NCBI RefSeq assembly: GCF_024505045.1
Contig: NZ_JANIBM010000027.1
Span: 1 to 64,000, forward strand
Source: Methylomonas aurea
Lineage (GTDB): Bacteria > Pseudomonadota > Gammaproteobacteria > Methylococcales > Methylomonadaceae
Length of the DNA: 64,000 nt
Reading direction: 5' to 3'
Shown here in pieces: positions 25,142 to 60,477 of the stretch. The position numbers were made by a program, and so were the translations under genes. The notes beneath the pieces were generated by a model that saw only the letters and a program-made list of their open reading frames with translations, did not search any database and was not told where the DNA came from. Position 1 is the stretch's first letter. The number at the start of each line of letters is the position of its first letter.

Positions 25142-25242
25142 GGTGACAGGGATTACCCGGCGCTGGTCTCGATCCGGGCCGGGTCTGTCGCCAATCCGAT
25201 TTGGTGACGCGGCCAGCTCGACCTGGCCGGCGAATTGTCACC
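25142..25242. repeat. Partial relative of the 210-bp GTGAC repeat
   Basis: Starts GGTGACAGG and ends AATTGTCACC. Its second half (GGCCAGCTCGACCTGGCCGG and following) is identical to one half of the 210-bp repeat; the first half is shortened. Confidence 0.75.
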
Positions 25243-25505: not shown

Positions 25506-26183
25506 TCAAGCCGCCAAAGGCAGGTAGCGGCAAAGGCCAATCTGTTGCGGCATTGCATCGGCATCGATGATTTCGATTTTAAAATCATCGGTGTTATCAA
25601 AGCGGTGCCGATAACGGCGCTCGTTGTCCCACTGATACCAGCGCCAATAGATCGCCTCTTCAACGTCGGCGCTCGCGTCTGCGCTTCTACCTGCTTGGGC
25701 TGCTCTAAAAATCCCATCCTGGCGGCCTGGTAGATATTTTTCCACCGTATCCCGATACAGTTGTTCATAGTCCAGTTCCCGCAACGCCGCTTGTGCGTAC
25801 ACGCGGGCCGCGTCGATTTCATACGCCATGCCACGGCTAAGGCGTTTGCCGTTCAAGTAGCGGCCAAAGGTCACACCCTCGCCATACTTGCTGTGATCGC
25901 GGAGCCAATGACTCATATACACGTTAAATGCAATATCGTGTACCTCTTGAGCGGATAAATGGAATGGCTCTTGATCCAACAACACAGCTTCGGATTGATT
26001 GCCGATAATTTCCATCGCATCGGACAAAATGCGACCTCGAACGATATTGTCTAAGCTGTGGTGCCGAACGTCGCCGCTCGGTAAGGTTTGCATTAGTGAA
26101 CTACTAGGCACGCGGTTAGCGTAGGCCTGCCATTGTGCATCGGAAACGATAACGCGGATTCTCGCGTTTTGAACGGTTTTCAT
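25506..26183 (-). CDS. Unknown 225-residue protein
   Basis: Soluble; begins MKTVQNARIRVIVSDAQWQA. Middle part HLSAQEVHDIAFNVYMSHWL and a C-terminal Tyr/Arg-rich stretch (IYWRWYQWDNERRYRHRFD). It is preceded by GGGGATAACAGCC and a terminator-like hairpin at 26229-26252. It belongs to the minus-strand accessory array. I do not recognise the family and see no catalytic motif. Confidence 0.55.
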   Translation of the reverse strand: MKTVQNARIRVIVSDAQWQAYANRVPSSSLMQTLPSGDVRHHSLDNIVRGRILSDAMEIIGNQSEAVLLDQEPFHLSAQEVHDIAFNVYMSHWLRDHSKYGEGVTFGRYLNGKRLSRGMAYEIDAARVYAQAALRELDYEQLYRDTVEKYLPGRQDGIFRAAQAGRSADASADVEEAIYWRWYQWDNERRYRHRFDNTDDFKIEIIDADAMPQQIGLCRYLPLAA

Positions 26184-26395: not shown

Positions 26396-26504
26396 AATGG
26401 AAACCTCCGGTAATCTGGCCAGAGCGAAGCGCTCGGCCTTCTGATGGTCGGGCGACTGCCCGAAACCATGGGTCTATTGTCCTGCGTTTTTGTTTGCCTG
26501 TCAA
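26396..26504 (-). promoter_or_regulatory. Promoter-leader module copy 7
   Basis: TTGACA (26499-26504), 17 bp, GACAAT (26476-26481). The leader hairpin is ATGGTTTCGGGC / GCCCGACCAT and the second hairpin GGCCGAGCGCTTCGCTCTGGCC has a compensatory pair relative to other copies. Confidence 0.8.
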
Positions 26505-26541
26505 GTGTTTTTGCCTGATAACGTAACATAATTACCTGGCT

Positions 26542-27154: not shown

Positions 27155-27195
27155 CGGAAACCTCCGGTAACCTGGCCAGAGCGAAGCGCCCGGCC
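27155..27195 (-). promoter_or_regulatory. Leader module copy 8 (no own promoter)
   Basis: GGCCGGGCGCTTCGCTCTGGCC core and CCGGAGGTTTCCGATG. Placed after the KlcA gene; read from the promoter at 27751-27779. Confidence 0.65.
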
Positions 27196-27247
27196 TTCTC
27201 TTTAAATTAGGTAAAGATGCCCCGGCACATGGCCGAGGCGTTAAGCC

Positions 27248-27670
27248 TTAATCGATAGCGGCGAAGATCAAGGCGGCTTCGGCATGTTCGGAAGCAAAGG
27301 CCCGCAAAAAATGATAGCGGTCAATCAGTGCATCGACATCGTGTTGCCAGCACATGGCGCTAATGAGTTTATTGATTGCAAACAAGCTAATCACGACACC
27401 GGCCGCATCGGGCGACATTACATCGTCGAAATAATTACCGGCGACCGAAATCCGTACCGGCGCATCGAAAGCGGGAGCCATATAAAAGCCACCGTTGCTA
27501 AGCTCATGAAACAACCAGTAACCGCCTTTGTAATCGGGGCACAATTCATCGGCGGTTTGATAAACCAGCATTTCACCGATTAACATCAACTCGCCACCGA
27601 AATAAGTAGGAAGGAAGTTAAGACGATTGCTATCTGCAACCAAGGAAGAAGAAACAGGATTTTCTAACAT
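27248..27670 (-). CDS. KlcA/ArdB antirestriction protein
   Basis: 140 residues from the ATG at 27670, directly behind module copy 9; the longer frame translates the leader. The signature LCPDYKGGYWLFHELSNGGF followed by YMAP is diagnostic of the KlcA/ArdB antirestriction family, and the C-terminal FLRAFASEHAEAALIFAAID helix is typical. ArdB-type proteins block type I restriction of incoming plasmids without mimicking DNA. Its strong promoter suggests expression on entry. Confidence 0.85.
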   Translation of the reverse strand: MLENPVSSSLVADSNRLNFLPTYFGGELMLIGEMLVYQTADELCPDYKGGYWLFHELSNGGFYMAPAFDAPVRISVAGNYFDDVMSPDAAGVVISLFAINKLISAMCWQHDVDALIDRYHFLRAFASEHAEAALIFAAID

Positions 27671-27779
27671 CGGATACCTCCGGTAAACCTGGCCAGAGCG
27701 AAACTGCCCGGCCTTCTGATGGTAGGGCGGTTGCCCCAAACCATGGTGCTATTATCCGGGTTTACTGCTTAATTGTCAA
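27671..27779 (-). promoter_or_regulatory. Promoter-leader module copy 9
   Basis: TTGACA (27774-27779), 17 bp, GATAAT (27751-27756); hairpins as in other copies; CCGGAGGTATCCG keeps the CGGA/TCCG pairing. It is divergent from a sigma-54 promoter 62 bp away. Confidence 0.8.
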
Positions 27780-27840
27780 GTAAAAACACCTGATAACGCA
27801 ACAAAAAAAGCTTTACACTGTCCGGCAATATAACGCGTTC

Positions 27841-27856
27841 TGGCACGCCCCTTGCA
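27841..27856 (+). promoter_or_regulatory. Sigma-54 promoter of RNA copy A
   Basis: TGGCACGCCCCTTGCA has the -24 GG and -12 GC with correct spacing and every conserved base of the RpoN consensus. The expected start is near 27867. The same 16 bases occur before RNA copy B. Confidence 0.75.
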
Positions 27857-28241
27857 ATCGGGATTAAGGGTTCAGGGGAGCGGAGAAATCTAAATAGCGC
27901 GGCGATAGCCGCACCGCTTGTTAGCCGGGGCAATACCCGGCCTGGGTTGAATCGGTCTTAATGGGACGAGGGTGTGCGGTGCGTACAGGCAGGCGGAGCG
28001 TTCGGCGCGGTCAAGGGCGATCATAAAAAAATCGACGCAAAGCCTTAATCAAAAAGGCGTCTATTTTTTTATGATTGGGCGTAGCCTTTACCCTTGACCG
28101 AAGAAGCCGGGCGCTCTGGCAATCTGTCCGCACATTCCGCACACCCCCCCATTAAGACGAACACTGGGATGGCCACGGCTAAACCTGCCTGTCAGAATCA
28201 GCCGGCGATAGCCGCACCTTTCAAGGATCGAACACACCAAA

Positions 28242-28259
28242 TTTTCGCGCCCGCGAAAA
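28242..28259. promoter_or_regulatory. KorB-like box, copy 4 (inside RNA A)
   Basis: Perfect TTTTCGCGCCCGCGAAAA; the equivalent place in RNA copy B has box 32383-32400 with GG instead of CC at the centre. Confidence 0.6.
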
Positions 28260-28301
28260 TCACCAAATTACAGGTGGCGATAGCCACCATCAAAGCCAAA
28301 C

Positions 28302-28373
28302 GATTTATGCACATTTGCCCGCGCGGGGGTCTTCCAATCTACCCCCGAAAAAGTGGGCGGTTGTGTATAAATC
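28302..28373 (+). ncRNA. 72-nt RNA motif, copy in RNA A
   Basis: Outer stem GATTTAT / ATAAATC, middle stem GCCCGC / GTGGGC, inner stem GGGGGT / ACCCCC with CTTCCAATCT loop, then an unpaired GAAAAA. Exactly 72 nt, as are the copies at 32424-32495 and 29356-29427. Confidence 0.65.
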
Positions 28374-28662
28374 CACCGTCCCCCTTTAGGGTGTTGCTGT
28401 TCGAGCAGGGCGATAGCCTTGCGCGCCGTTAGGGATAAGCCCAAGCGGCTAAGGGAGGCGTGGCGGTGCGGAGCTTGCGGAGTGCCGACACACGTCCCTT
28501 ATTGAGCGTCGGCAAGGTGGCCTGGCAGGTTGGCCGCGTGCGGCCAAGTCGGAACGACCGAGCGAATAGCGAGCCTAGAAGGGCATCCGGTTTTTGTGTA
28601 GCGATAGCGGAACAAAAATGCCCCAACCTATCCAAAACAGTCACACCACAACCCTCCATAAC

Positions 28663-28947
28663 TCAACCGTCAATCGTAACCAAACCATCCCAACCCGCCG
28701 CCCGGATCGCCGCAAGCGCCGGATCAAGCGAATTAAACTCGATAATATGTCCATCCTCATTGGACAAAGCAAAATCGACAAACAACGCCTCCGCATCGGC
28801 TACCAAATTAGGCCAAACCTCCCAATGCCCCGGCACACCATCAACCAAACCACGAGCCAACATAAACCCGTGAACATTATCAGCGGCCACCATATCGGCC
28901 AAAGCCGCCAACGTCATAAACCTAGTTTTCAATTCCACTTCATTCAT
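28663..28947 (-). CDS. Unknown 94-residue protein
   Basis: Acidic, soluble; KTRFMTLAALADMVAADNVH, GHWEVWPNLVADAEALFVDF. The C-terminus SLDPALAAIRAAGWDGLVTI is helical. It is convergent with RNA copy A and 15 bp downstream of the next gene. No family is recognised. It is the last gene of the minus-strand run 30652-28663, which appears to be one transcription unit of small unknown proteins. Confidence 0.5.
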   Translation of the reverse strand: MNEVELKTRFMTLAALADMVAADNVHGFMLARGLVDGVPGHWEVWPNLVADAEALFVDFALSNEDGHIIEFNSLDPALAAIRAAGWDGLVTIDG

Positions 28948-29355: not shown

Positions 29356-29427
29356 GATTTGCCCACAGAAACACGCTTTTTCGGGGGCAGCTTGGAAAGC
29401 CCCCCCGCGTGTTTATATGGACAAATC
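29356..29427 (-). ncRNA. 72-nt RNA motif as leader of the 29325 gene
   Basis: On the minus strand: GATTTG / CAAATC outer stem, AAACACGC / GCGTGTTT middle stem, then GGGGGGGCTTTCCAAGCTGC and CCCCGAAAAA. The loop and GAAAAA match the two copies in the large RNAs, while the stems have different bases that still pair. Cis-regulation of the following gene is possible. Confidence 0.65.
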
Positions 29428-30990: not shown

Positions 30991-31809
30991 CTAGGCGGCT
31001 TTCAGCTTGCGCATTTCCTCCGCAAGCGTCCAAAGTGCCTTATTCAGCTTGACGTTTTCACTAACGCCTTTCACCTCACGCGCGCGGTGTGAGCGGCGAG
31101 TCTCCTTATTCATCACATTAACCCCGCCGCGAATGACTTTTTCTTGCAACACGTTAAACGTGGTGAACAAATCGCCGGCACGGTCGCCGGTGCGGCGTGG
31201 GAGTAACAGCGCGTCATTATCAACCGCTACCTCGTCAGCATCCCAGCGCAGTTCTTTAGCCGCCTCGGCAAAAATGCGGCGCTCTGCGGGGCTTAGGTCA
31301 ATGCCTTGCATCAGTTCCATTTGTTCAAGCGCTTTAGGCGTTTGCGAAACCACGTGATAAGTGCCCTCGATGACGTTATTAACTACGTCGCCAGAATGGC
31401 GAACTCTAACGGCTTCAATCTGGCCATCACTAACAATCATGCCGTTTGAGCACACAAGGCGGTAAAGGCCAGCGCTCAACTGATAAGAGCTAGTGCCATC
31501 GTGCGAATTAACCAGCACGATTTCCGGCTTGACTTCGCCAACGGTTGAAAATCCATCATGCTGACGGAATCTTAAAAGATGTTTCGCGTAACCTTTTTTT
31601 GTCACATCGCGAACGCGGCTTTCGGTTGCGAACACGGGCAAAAAGCCTTCGTTGCGCAAGGCTTCGACGATGTTAATGGTAGGGATGAATTTGTAAGAGT
31701 CTTTGCGGCTCTCGTGCTTATCGGCGGCGAACACCGATGGAGCCAAGCGGCGCAATTGATCGTTGTCCAGTGGGTTTTGGGTTTTGGTGCCGTAAAAAGA
31801 ACGTAACAT
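30991..31809 (-). CDS. DUF932 family plasmid protein
   Basis: 272 residues. RRLAPSVFAADKHESRKDSY, then YKFIPTINIVEALRNEGFLP and LVNSHDGTSSYQLSAGLYRL, VCSNGMIV: the conserved blocks of DUF932, frequent on conjugative plasmids and phages near anti-restriction genes. Its molecular role is not settled. It is driven by promoter-leader module copy 10 and lies on the minus strand, as the other early-type genes do. Confidence 0.82.
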   Translation of the reverse strand: MLRSFYGTKTQNPLDNDQLRRLAPSVFAADKHESRKDSYKFIPTINIVEALRNEGFLPVFATESRVRDVTKKGYAKHLLRFRQHDGFSTVGEVKPEIVLVNSHDGTSSYQLSAGLYRLVCSNGMIVSDGQIEAVRVRHSGDVVNNVIEGTYHVVSQTPKALEQMELMQGIDLSPAERRIFAEAAKELRWDADEVAVDNDALLLPRRTGDRAGDLFTTFNVLQEKVIRGGVNVMNKETRRSHRAREVKGVSENVKLNKALWTLAEEMRKLKAA

Positions 31810-31918
31810 GGTAAATCTCCGTTAAACCTGGCCAGAGCAAAGTGCCCGGCCTTCTGATGGTGGGGCGGTTGCCCCGAAACCATGGTGCTATTATCCGGGT
31901 TTATCGTTTGCCTGTCAA
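31810..31918 (-). promoter_or_regulatory. Promoter-leader module copy 10
   Basis: TTGACA (31913-31918), 17 bp, GATAAT (31890-31895). Leader hairpins ATGGTTTCGGGGC / GCCCCACCAT and GGCC...GGCC; the SD hairpin is weakened (CGGAGATTTACC). Divergent from the second sigma-54 promoter. Confidence 0.8.
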
Positions 31919-31979
31919 GCTTTTTTGCATGATAGAAGAAAAAAAACACCGCCTTTTTTACAAGCAAATCAACCAGTTA

Positions 31980-31995
31980 TGGCACGCCCCTTGCA
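31980..31995 (+). promoter_or_regulatory. Sigma-54 promoter of RNA copy B
   Basis: TGGCACGCCCCTTGCA, identical to 27841-27856. Expected start near 32006. Confidence 0.75.
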
Positions 31996-32382
31996 TCTGG
32001 ATTAAGGGTTCAGGGGAGCGGGAATCTAAACAGCGCGGCGATAGCCGCACCTTTTGTTCACCATGACAAAACCCCGGCTCGGGAGGCATCCGTCTTAATG
32101 GGACGAGGGTGTGCGGTGCGTACAGTCGGCCGGAGGGTTCGGCGCGGTCAAGGGCGGACATAAAAAAATCGACACAAAGCCATAATCAAAATGGTGTCTA
32201 TTTTTTTATGTTCGGGCGCAGCCTTTACCCTTGATCGATGAAGCCGGACGCTCTGGCAATCTGTTCGCACATTACGCACATCCTTCCCATTAAGGCACCA
32301 CGCTAGGACAGGTGGGCACGGTTAAACCCCCAACATCTAAACTCAGCGCGGCGATAGTCGCACCTTATTCATTGCAACAACA

Positions 32383-32423: not shown

Positions 32424-32495
32424 GATTTATGCACACTCGCCCGCGTGGGGGTCTTTCAACCTACCCCCGAAAAAGCGGGGCGTTGTGTATAAATC
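32424..32495 (+). ncRNA. 72-nt RNA motif, copy in RNA B
   Basis: GATTTAT / ATAAATC outer, CGCCCGC / GCGGGGCG middle, GGGGGT / ACCCCC inner with CTTTCAACCT loop and trailing GAAAAA. Confidence 0.65.
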
Positions 32496-32714
32496 CACCG
32501 ATTACCTTTAGGGTGTTGCTGTTCGAGCAGGGCGATAGCCTTGCGTGCCGTTAGGGATAAGCCACAGCGGCTAAGGGAGGTGGGGCGGTGCGTAGCTTGC
32601 GGAGCGCCGACGCACGTCCCTTATTGAGCGTCGGCAAGGCGGCCTGGAAGGTGCCGGCGATAGCCGGCAGTCGGTACGACCGAAGCGAAAGCGGAGTCTG
32701 TAAGGGCGTCCGGT

Positions 32715-32732
32715 TTTTCGCGGGCGCGAAAA
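32715..32732. promoter_or_regulatory. KorB-like box, copy 6 (in terminal hairpin of RNA B)
   Basis: TTTTCGCGGGCGCGAAAA. It replaces the TTTTTGT...ACAAAAA stem found at the same place in RNA copy A. Confidence 0.6.
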
Positions 32733-32767
32733 ATGCCCCTGAAATAAAAAACAGCATATGATCCCAA

Positions 32768-58484: not shown

Positions 58485-59666
58485 TTAGCGACTAGGCGCT
58501 AAATGATCGACATCTTGCGACTGCTTATCAACAGCCGGCATTTGCTCTACGCCGGTCGCTTTCGGTGTTTGGCCTATAGCCACTTGCAAACGATTCTTGT
58601 CTTTCGCTACGCGGTCTCTAAGCACCTCGTAATCGGTTTTAACCTTCGGCAACTTCTCAATGAAAGCCTCAACCGCTATGGCGTCGTTGTCCATACCGGC
58701 GGCACGAAGAGCGTGCGCCGTCGCGTACCAATCGGCAACCACATTAGTTCGTGTGCTTTCGAGCGTTTTTTTACCAGACATATCCGGCGCAACACCGTTT
58801 ACAACCTCATTTAGTGCAGTCTCGACCTGGCTTTGTAGATAGGATGATTCAATCGGTTTTTTGTTAGCCTCTGGATCACGTTGCCATTTCTCGATCCGCT
58901 CTTGATGTTGGTGCATAGCGCCTTTAGTGCTACTGCGGCCCTTGCCTCGGATAGCGGCCGGCGTCGCATTCGCCTCAACGCCTCGGTCGCGTAGCGCCTG
59001 GGCGAACTGTTCTCGCCATTCTTGCAGCGTATTTTTTCGGATATAAAGACGTTCGCCGGTTTCGCTTACCGCCTTAACGACTAAATGAACATGCGGGTTT
59101 TTACCGGATTCGGTCTTTTCGTGCTTTGGATCGGTCGCCGGATCATGTAACACCATCGCGTAACGATGGCTAAAGGCGAAGTTTTCGCGGGCGAAGAACT
59201 GGGCCGCGTCTAAAACCTTTTGTGGTGGTGCGCCGTGCGGCATTGATAATACGATGTTATGTACCAGTTTCGCGCGTTTGTCTTTCTCGCCGGCTTCCGG
59301 TGCCTCCCTGTGACGTTGATTGATCACGGTATCCAACTTCCAATCCTTGACCAAAAAGCCCGAAACATCCCGACCTTTTAGAGTGTCGCCATCATCGGTT
59401 AGTACATCCAGTTCGCCGTGACGATCAATGTAATCGATGTGAGCCTCTGCCGTGCCGCTATCTCGACCGCCGCCAGTGACCTTTACCATAACCTCCGGCA
59501 CGCGATCCAACGTCCGCCTTAAGGCGTCCATGGATGCACGTGACGACGGATCAAATAATGGACGGCCGGCACGCGGCGCTTGCGGCCCTTTACGGCCACG
59601 ACTGCCAATATTTAAACCTTGAGCGTCTTTATCTCGTGCAATACGAACCGTTCTTTTTTTAGCCAT
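58485..59666 (-). CDS. MOB-P relaxase
   Basis: 393 residues. Nuclease N-terminal half: IDYIDRHGEL (candidate catalytic Tyr), VHNIVLSMP, GKNPHVHLVVKAV (HxHxxxK, ~192-199), the MOB-P three-motif layout, followed by QEWREQFAQALRDRGVEANA. It should nick at 60297/60298 in concert with the upstream TraJ/MobC-like protein. The C-terminus is short compared with RP4 TraI (732 residues). It overlaps the upstream gene by 8 bp. Confidence 0.85.
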   Translation of the reverse strand: MAKKRTVRIARDKDAQGLNIGSRGRKGPQAPRAGRPLFDPSSRASMDALRRTLDRVPEVMVKVTGGGRDSGTAEAHIDYIDRHGELDVLTDDGDTLKGRDVSGFLVKDWKLDTVINQRHREAPEAGEKDKRAKLVHNIVLSMPHGAPPQKVLDAAQFFARENFAFSHRYAMVLHDPATDPKHEKTESGKNPHVHLVVKAVSETGERLYIRKNTLQEWREQFAQALRDRGVEANATPAAIRGKGRSSTKGAMHQHQERIEKWQRDPEANKKPIESSYLQSQVETALNEVVNGVAPDMSGKKTLESTRTNVVADWYATAHALRAAGMDNDAIAVEAFIEKLPKVKTDYEVLRDRVAKDKNRLQVAIGQTPKATGVEQMPAVDKQSQDVDHLAPSR

Positions 59667-60222: not shown

Positions 60223-60477
60223 TCCGACACCTCACCAATAAAAAAACTGTTCAACATGGGAATATGTTACCACAAATGCCGACGCTAGTCTATCCTGCCC
60301 TCTTTTTGTTTTGTTTTTTACGTGCCTTTGCCGTTGCACGGGCTGGTTTTGCTGAAAGTTTGCTGAAAGTTGCGAGAAACAGCATGCGGTTATAGTGAAA
60401 TTATGGCGATAGTATTGAAAACCTGTGGATAATTAGTGTAGAGTGTAGAAAAATGACTGAAATATCGGTATGGCAAG
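60223..60477. other. Origin of transfer (oriT) with IncP-type nic
   Basis: TATCCTG|CCC at 60291-60300 matches the IncP nic core ATCCTG|C. It lies between the divergent TraJ/MobC-like and TraK-like genes, the RP4 arrangement. By analogy the transferred strand is the plus strand with its 5' end at 60298, so DNA to the right enters first and minus-strand genes use the T-strand as template. Confidence 0.7.

Follow-up and report, generated by a model that had tools for sequence, protein, structure and literature searches.

Two related plus-strand elements, copies A and B, in the 64,000-nucleotide stretch of DNA analyzed in this study (the window) were each interpreted, with a probability of roughly 0.5, as a compound island for single-strand initiation within the establishment region, with a sigma-54 transcription unit at its head. 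Conservation of the promoter, covarying folds, a strand bias, modularity, and a resemblance to ColE1 were observed, and from these we infer transcription, the loading of PriA and DnaA, and a role in establishment. The features of the two elements and their surroundings are summarized in Table 1.

Table 1. Positions of the two elements, neighboring genes, and repeats in the window
Feature	Position	Strand	Remark
Sigma-54 core promoter, copy A, TGGCACGCCCCTTGCA	27841..27856	+	Predicted transcription start ~27867
Sigma-54 core promoter, copy B	31980..31995	+	16 bases identical to copy A; predicted start ~32006
5' module, copy A	27857..28160	+	Small stem-loops, then long bulged hairpin (about 27955-28158)
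5' module, copy B	31996..32298	+	
DnaA-box hairpin, copy A	28302..28373	+	Exact DnaA boxes TTATGCACA / TTATACACA in stem; A-site-like
DnaA-box hairpin, copy B	32424..32495	+	Box exact
Third hairpin of the same family	29356..29427	-	Box with two mismatches
Conserved block, GTTAGGGATAAGCCCAAGCGGCTAAGGG ... CCCTTATTGAGCG	28428..28510	+	
Primosome-assembly-site-like (PAS-like) module, copy A	28516..28624	+	R1 104 bits, own sequence in model
Motif GACCGAGCGAATAGCG, copy A	28556-28571	+	
Terminal hairpin of PAS-like module, copy A	28581-28624	+	
PAS-like module, copy B	32638..32739	+	Motif at 32678; R1 86.9 bits, own sequence in model
Convergent ORF	28663-28947	-	3' of the terminal stem of copy A
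Antirestriction protein gene (PF03230)	27248..27670	-	Divergent from copy A
Sigma-70-like promoter of PF03230 gene	27751-27779	-	
DUF932 gene	30991..31809	-	Divergent from copy B
Sigma-70-like promoter of DUF932 gene	31890-31918	-	
MobA/VirD2-type relaxase gene (PF03432)	58485..59666	-	
RP4-type nick-like string TATCCTG/C	60291..60298	+	In gap after mobC-like gene
TTTTCGCGSSCGCGAAAA, exact copies	10818, 25259, 28242, 32383, 32715, 35580, 36760, 37941, 46809, 54061		
TTTTCGCGSSCGCGAAAA, one mismatch	4702, 43314		

Plasmid context and general properties of the elements

The window covers most of a 65,309-base, non-circularized contig (G000:C27), which carries genes for an RPA-type initiator and a MobA/VirD2-type relaxase, and a MobC-like gene. 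DNA-level relatives of the element were found in two Methylomonas plasmids, together with short matches in Thauera and Hydrogenophaga plasmids; four relatives are plasmid records, and a relaxase gene was present on five more contigs, in agreement with the original prediction that the element is part of plasmid biology. No phage homologue was detected by blastn. Matches of the 3' part to plasmids of Streptomyces, Saprospira, and Rathayibacter (E values of 0.05-0.6) were weak and were taken as chance. With stricter filters, R1, a covariance model of the PAS-like module at the 3' end, matched 7 of 151 genomes of the family, the host's own included (the match in G366, of 27 bits, looks spurious, and that in G379, of 38 bits, is partial), and none of the 273 other genomes drawn from the class. 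The copies in G036 were left uncounted, being near-certainly from the same plasmid (806/806 bases identical), and in G011:C48, a piece at the edge of the contig was too short for promoter scoring, as were the shorter fragments from G008, G019, and G031. The alignment A1 contained 14 of the 15 sequences; the G018 copy, cut by the end of its contig, was left out.

Counted from the end of the promoter core, copies A and B were 768 and 744 bases long, respectively, and were identical at 637 of 721 aligned bases. Among the 31 gaps in their alignment, 28 were not multiples of three, and at least five stops were present in each plus-strand frame of either copy; a 115-codon open run in frame 1 of copy A was absent from copy B. 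A coding region was ruled out by these frame-breaking gaps and stops, as expected from the earlier description of approximately 760 bp with no conserved reading frame. The GGGCAT/ATGCCC stem that had been described ahead of the convergent gene is also real and corresponds to the terminal hairpin of copy A; no T run follows it on the plus strand, indicating that it is not an intrinsic terminator of this strand. The Rfam search that had been proposed yielded no family at the gathering score across the window, and the four matches obtained between 26000 and 37000 at E values up to 5 were all far below the gathering scores. In the available parts of the literature found, no comparable element with sigma-54 at its head was described.

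Probable sigma-54 core promoter

We regard the sigma-54 promoter as probably genuine. In the whole window, TGGCACG-N4-TTGC occurred with no mismatch at the heads of the two copies only (27841 and 31980, both on the plus strand), confirming the perfect RpoN consensus reported earlier at the first position; at two mismatches or fewer, there were 27 matches against a shuffle mean of 28. Ten elements with the 5' module, representing about four lineages, were compared after anchoring on AAGGGTTCAGG. Two each came from the window, G024, and G338 (the last from another genus), three from G009, and one from G011. A looser core, TGGYAYR-N5-TGCA, was found at the same place in eight of these ten, 8 or 9 bases before AAGGG, with ten bases between GG (-24) and GC (-12) and with free spacer letters. 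This looser core, which was composed only after the elements had been inspected, occurred five times when both strands of eight plasmid contigs totaling 466,656 bases were scanned (the window's contig, NZ_CP070495, G024:C2, G011:C48, G009:C150, G018:C42, and the Hydrogenophaga and Thauera plasmids), and headed this element in all five cases. The two exceptions, G009:C49 and the G024 element at 31.9 kb, had the -12 half only and no adjoining 3' module by R1.

Upstream of the core, TGTCAA was present in nine of the ten elements, and no other conserved block was seen; in the copies of the window, this hexamer forms the -35 box of the divergent sigma-70-like promoter. Both RpoN and activators are available in the host, whose genome contains a single RpoN gene (PF04552 match) and 19 PF00158 matches, none of which is on contig C27. 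The nitrogen- or stress-type control suggested previously would be an extrapolation from the sigma factor. On the minus strand, a repeated gene leader (GGCCGGGC...GCTCTGGCCAGG...GGAGG) was observed at 26399-26506, 27156-27199, 27665-27781, and 31804-31920, and TTGACA-N17-GAYAAT preceded three of the four; the window contained six such promoter strings, all on the minus strand, against 0.5 expected.

Covarying folds in the 5' module

Six 5' modules folded as RNA with z values of -6.0 to -9.9 relative to shuffles, including copy A (27860-28165; -9.9) and copy B (31998-32300; -9.0). Since the module of copy A also folded as DNA (z of -9.3), folding alone is no proof of RNA. In an alignment of eight sequences, the 80 consensus pairs (19 with double changes) were paired in 94.1% of cells, and the covariation score was reached by none of 500 shuffles. 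G-T cells outnumbered A-C cells in this alignment (44 versus 9), as well as in those of the PAS-like module (14 versus 6) and the DnaA-box hairpin (17 versus 3), indicating that the promoter sense is the folded sense. Of the 15 stretches taken from the elements, all but 28165-28300 also had their lower fold energy on the promoter-sense strand; in two control stretches, the opposite sense had the lower energy. Scores of the 5' module against phiX174, ColE1, G4, and R6K were inside the shuffle range. This module, which travels with the promoter, may be a new structured transcript.

The string GCGATAGC formed tips at 27902, 28205, 28277, 28410, 28601, 32038, 32532, and 32657, so that the two elements hold eight of the nine plus-strand copies of the contig; six minus-strand copies are located elsewhere.

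Resemblance of the 3' module to primosome sites

In the alignment of the PAS-like module, 93.6% of cells were paired, and the covariation score was above all 500 shuffles, while two of the five covariation measures (pairs with double changes and further pair types) were not above shuffles. The 3' block of the window folded little better than shuffles (28424-28624, z of -1.5; copy B, -1.9); the z values in four relatives were between -2.6 and -5.4.

Part of the PAS-like module aligned with ColE1 at about 1320-1343 (AGTCGGAACGACCGAGCGAATAGCGAG versus AGTC-GAACGACCGAGCG--TAGCGAG), and the score of 36 was matched by none of 400 dinucleotide shuffles (Gumbel p of ~2e-4); the E value of nhmmer on ColE1 was 0.22. 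The common string, AGTC..GAACGACCGAGCG..AGCGAG, which we take to be the primosome site (PriA) of ColE1, lies on the same strand as TTTTGCTCACATG, with its first base 88 bases beyond that of TTTTGCTCACATG, which is presumably the ori-side, RNA II-sense sequence. The F-G gap of phiX174, presumably the home of the primosome site of this phage, contains TTGACCAAGCGAAGCG; the alignment alone was not significant (p of 0.26). Both this gap and the PAS-like module contain GACC[AG]AGCG..AGCG. The short motif pattern, which was composed after phiX174 had been seen, was rare: 14 other loci totaling 317,978 bases gave three matches, of which two were R1 modules. On the assumption that the sites of ColE1 and phiX174 are located on the strand serving as the single-stranded template, the PAS-like module is in the same sense as that strand. 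Unlike these two systems, the island has an additional covarying hairpin ahead of the module and ends in a TTTTCGC/GCGAAAA hairpin, and R1 recognized neither system: no match was obtained on ColE1, phiX174, G4, alpha3, or R6K at E values up to 10. Scores of the conserved block (28425-28508) against phiX174, ColE1, G4, and R6K were inside the shuffle range.

DnaA-box hairpin

Among 14 aligned hairpins, the DnaA box was exact in seven, had one mismatch in six, and had two in one, the third hairpin of the window. Double changes were found in 12 of the 24 pairs, with a covariation score that none of 500 shuffles reached. In six plasmids, seven hairpins were on the nick strand (see below) and five on the opposite strand. 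A hairpin of R6K near position 25948 of locus L055, which we take to be the A-site (ABC primosome), similarly has a DnaA box in its stem. However, no sequence similarity was found beyond the box (score of 22 versus a shuffle mean of 23.8; 10 shuffles), and the box of the island family was inexact in seven of the 14 hairpins.

Modularity of the element

The 3' module was detected by R1 without the 5' module in G009:C150 (41.6 kb), G009:C118 (1.0 kb), G024 (42.2 kb), and G011 (10.6 kb), and also in G361, CP157007 (two), NZ_CP070495 (two), G018, and the Thauera (one) and Hydrogenophaga (two) plasmids. What is left of the long hairpin still preceded one 3' copy in NZ_CP070495 and in G018, and in Thauera, the module had iteron-like repeats on one side and the replication initiator gene on the other. 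The second copy in G338 had the promoter and 5' module with no 3' module. These 3'-only and promoter-plus-5'-only elements indicate that the promoter belongs to the 5' module and that the 3' module is independent. The original prediction of a single structured RNA of ~750 nt was, therefore, retained in part: the promoter stood and the 5' module covaries in its sense, but the single unit was not supported, as the 3' module also occurs promoterless, is similar to the primosome DNA of ColE1, and stays on the nick strand.

An R1 match at 25162 of the window (21 bits) was dropped because it lacked the GACC motif, and a match to the motif at 59071 of G024:C2, on the opposite strand and with no R1 match, was not counted. 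In G024:C2, the 5' and 3' modules are approximately 10 kb apart (31.9-42.3 kb; locus L038) and flank the relaxase gene and nick; G011:C48 looks similarly arranged, and G009 C49 plus C118 may be.

The main alternative is a sigma-54-dependent long structured non-coding RNA, in which all 760 nt would function as RNA and the ColE1-like string would reflect coincidence or a shared fold. The fixed spacing between the promoter and 5' module, the second copy in G338, the covariation of the 5' module, the tolerance of G-T pairs as in RNA, and the weak folding of the 3' block in the window are consistent with such an RNA, whereas the repeated occurrence of the 3' module without a promoter or 5' module, the link between its strand and the nick, and the absence of both a terminator after 28624 and an Rfam match argue against it; we consider this alternative possible, but doubtful. 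Large structured RNAs in bacteria include GOLLD, ROOL, and OLE, which the 5' module resembles in size and in the degree of folding; the differences are the lack of an Rfam match and the occurrence of the 3' part without a promoter.

A ColE1-like gated start appears improbable. Transcription from the sigma-54 promoter would open the duplex (R-loop) and displace the non-template strand, on which the primosome site would then be exposed, leading to a conditional start of replication. The same sense of the promoter and PAS-like module in the seven full-length elements found fits this model, as does the position of the similar ColE1 string after what we take to be the ori-side sequence on the same strand; however, the plasmid has its own RPA-type initiator, and 5'-only and 3'-only elements both exist.

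Strand bias relative to the nick

Under the RP4 polarity rule, the nick-like string at 60291 makes plus the predicted transferred strand. Nick strings in the mob gap were on the plus strand in the window, NZ_CP070495, G009:C150, G018, G024, and G011, and on the minus strand in G338 and Hydrogenophaga pDSM1084, and a PF03432 relaxase gene was located within about 1.2 kb of the nick in all eight plasmids or contigs. Other matches to TATCCTG[CT] exist on either contig strand, and the one in the mob gap was taken. Nick-like matches in G361:C2 and G379:C2 were inside ORFs and were not counted; the nick pattern had no match in CP157007, and no nick was assigned to the Thauera plasmid, the annotation of which shows no relaxase. 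All 14 R1 modules of at least 45 bits were on the nick strand in the eight plasmids with a nick and relaxase, although backbone genes are common to these plasmids and NZ_CP070495 is closely related to G018, so that the independent trials number fewer than 14.

The antirestriction and DUF932 genes of the window have the nick strand as their template. The same orientation has been reported for anti-defence genes of leading regions (PMC11541004), and single-strand initiation (ssi) sites have been reported on R6K, R100, ColE1, ColE2, and others (PMC7690428). Like Frpo/ssi elements, the island is multi-copy structured intergenic DNA that lies on the predicted transferred strand and has an anti-restriction gene beside it; it differs in that the sigma-54 core heads the opposite sense and that a full -35/-10 hairpin was not recognized by eye.

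An Frpo-type single-stranded promoter, with the folded plus strand itself acting as the promoter for the anti-restriction genes on the minus strand, seems slightly less probable still than a gated start. The island is beside the PF03230 and DUF932 genes, for which the predicted transferred strand is the template, published Frpo/ssi promoters are arranged likewise (PMC11541004), and a -10-like string is contained in TGTGTATAAATC, with which the 3' arm of the DnaA-box hairpin terminates. However, both genes are already provided with TTGACA-N17-GATAAT promoters that lie outside the fold, no TTGACA-like -35 was seen by eye before the TATAAA at the hairpin base, and hairpins of both orientations exist.

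Palindromes in the window

The palindrome TTTTCGCGSSCGCGAAAA was present in 12 copies at one mismatch or fewer in the window, versus none in 100 shuffles. Its CC center was on the plus strand in 8 of the 10 exact copies of the window, and in 9/9, 6/6, and 8/8 of those in NZ_CP070495, G009:C150, and G018, respectively; no exact copy was found in G024, G011, or the Hydrogenophaga and Thauera plasmids. This palindrome is possibly a KorB/ParB-type operator, although it is strand-polar. A repeat or operator cluster, in which the folds serve double-stranded DNA binding with neither an RNA nor a single-strand function, would suit a window rich in palindromes of another kind, but is very improbable because the compensatory changes and the excess of G-T over A-C keep pairing, which duplex binding does not explain.

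Proposed function and significance

If each copy is a compound single-strand-initiation island, its 3' part would be a DNA signal that folds when the transferred (plus) strand is single-stranded in the recipient or is exposed as the lagging-strand template. The PAS-like module (28516-28624) would load a PriA-type primosome, and the DnaA-box hairpin would provide a second, DnaA-dependent route, so that priming of the complementary strand would take place close to the anti-restriction genes. Transcription of the 5' part from the sigma-54 promoter would give a structured RNA of ~300-760 nt that shares its sense with the transferred strand. Because of this shared sense, the RNA cannot act as a primer for the complement of that strand; by analogy with ColE1, its synthesis could open the duplex and thereby make the primosome site accessible. 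In this boldest reading, which we regard as unlikely, the combination of a sigma-54-controlled structured RNA with a primosome site on the same strand would allow RpoN signals (nutrient or stress), through transcription and strand exposure, to time an extra, ColE1-like start of DNA synthesis on a conjugative plasmid, and the 5' module would found a new RNA family.

An alignment and a covariance model are now available for what would be a kind of DNA element, a reminder that covarying folds need not mean RNA. If the island interpretation is correct, the transferred strand of conjugative plasmids in methanotrophs bears several compound islands for priming. In the window, such an island, with a sigma-54 promoter attached, adjoins an anti-restriction gene, an arrangement that would tie the physiology of the host to the establishment of the plasmid.
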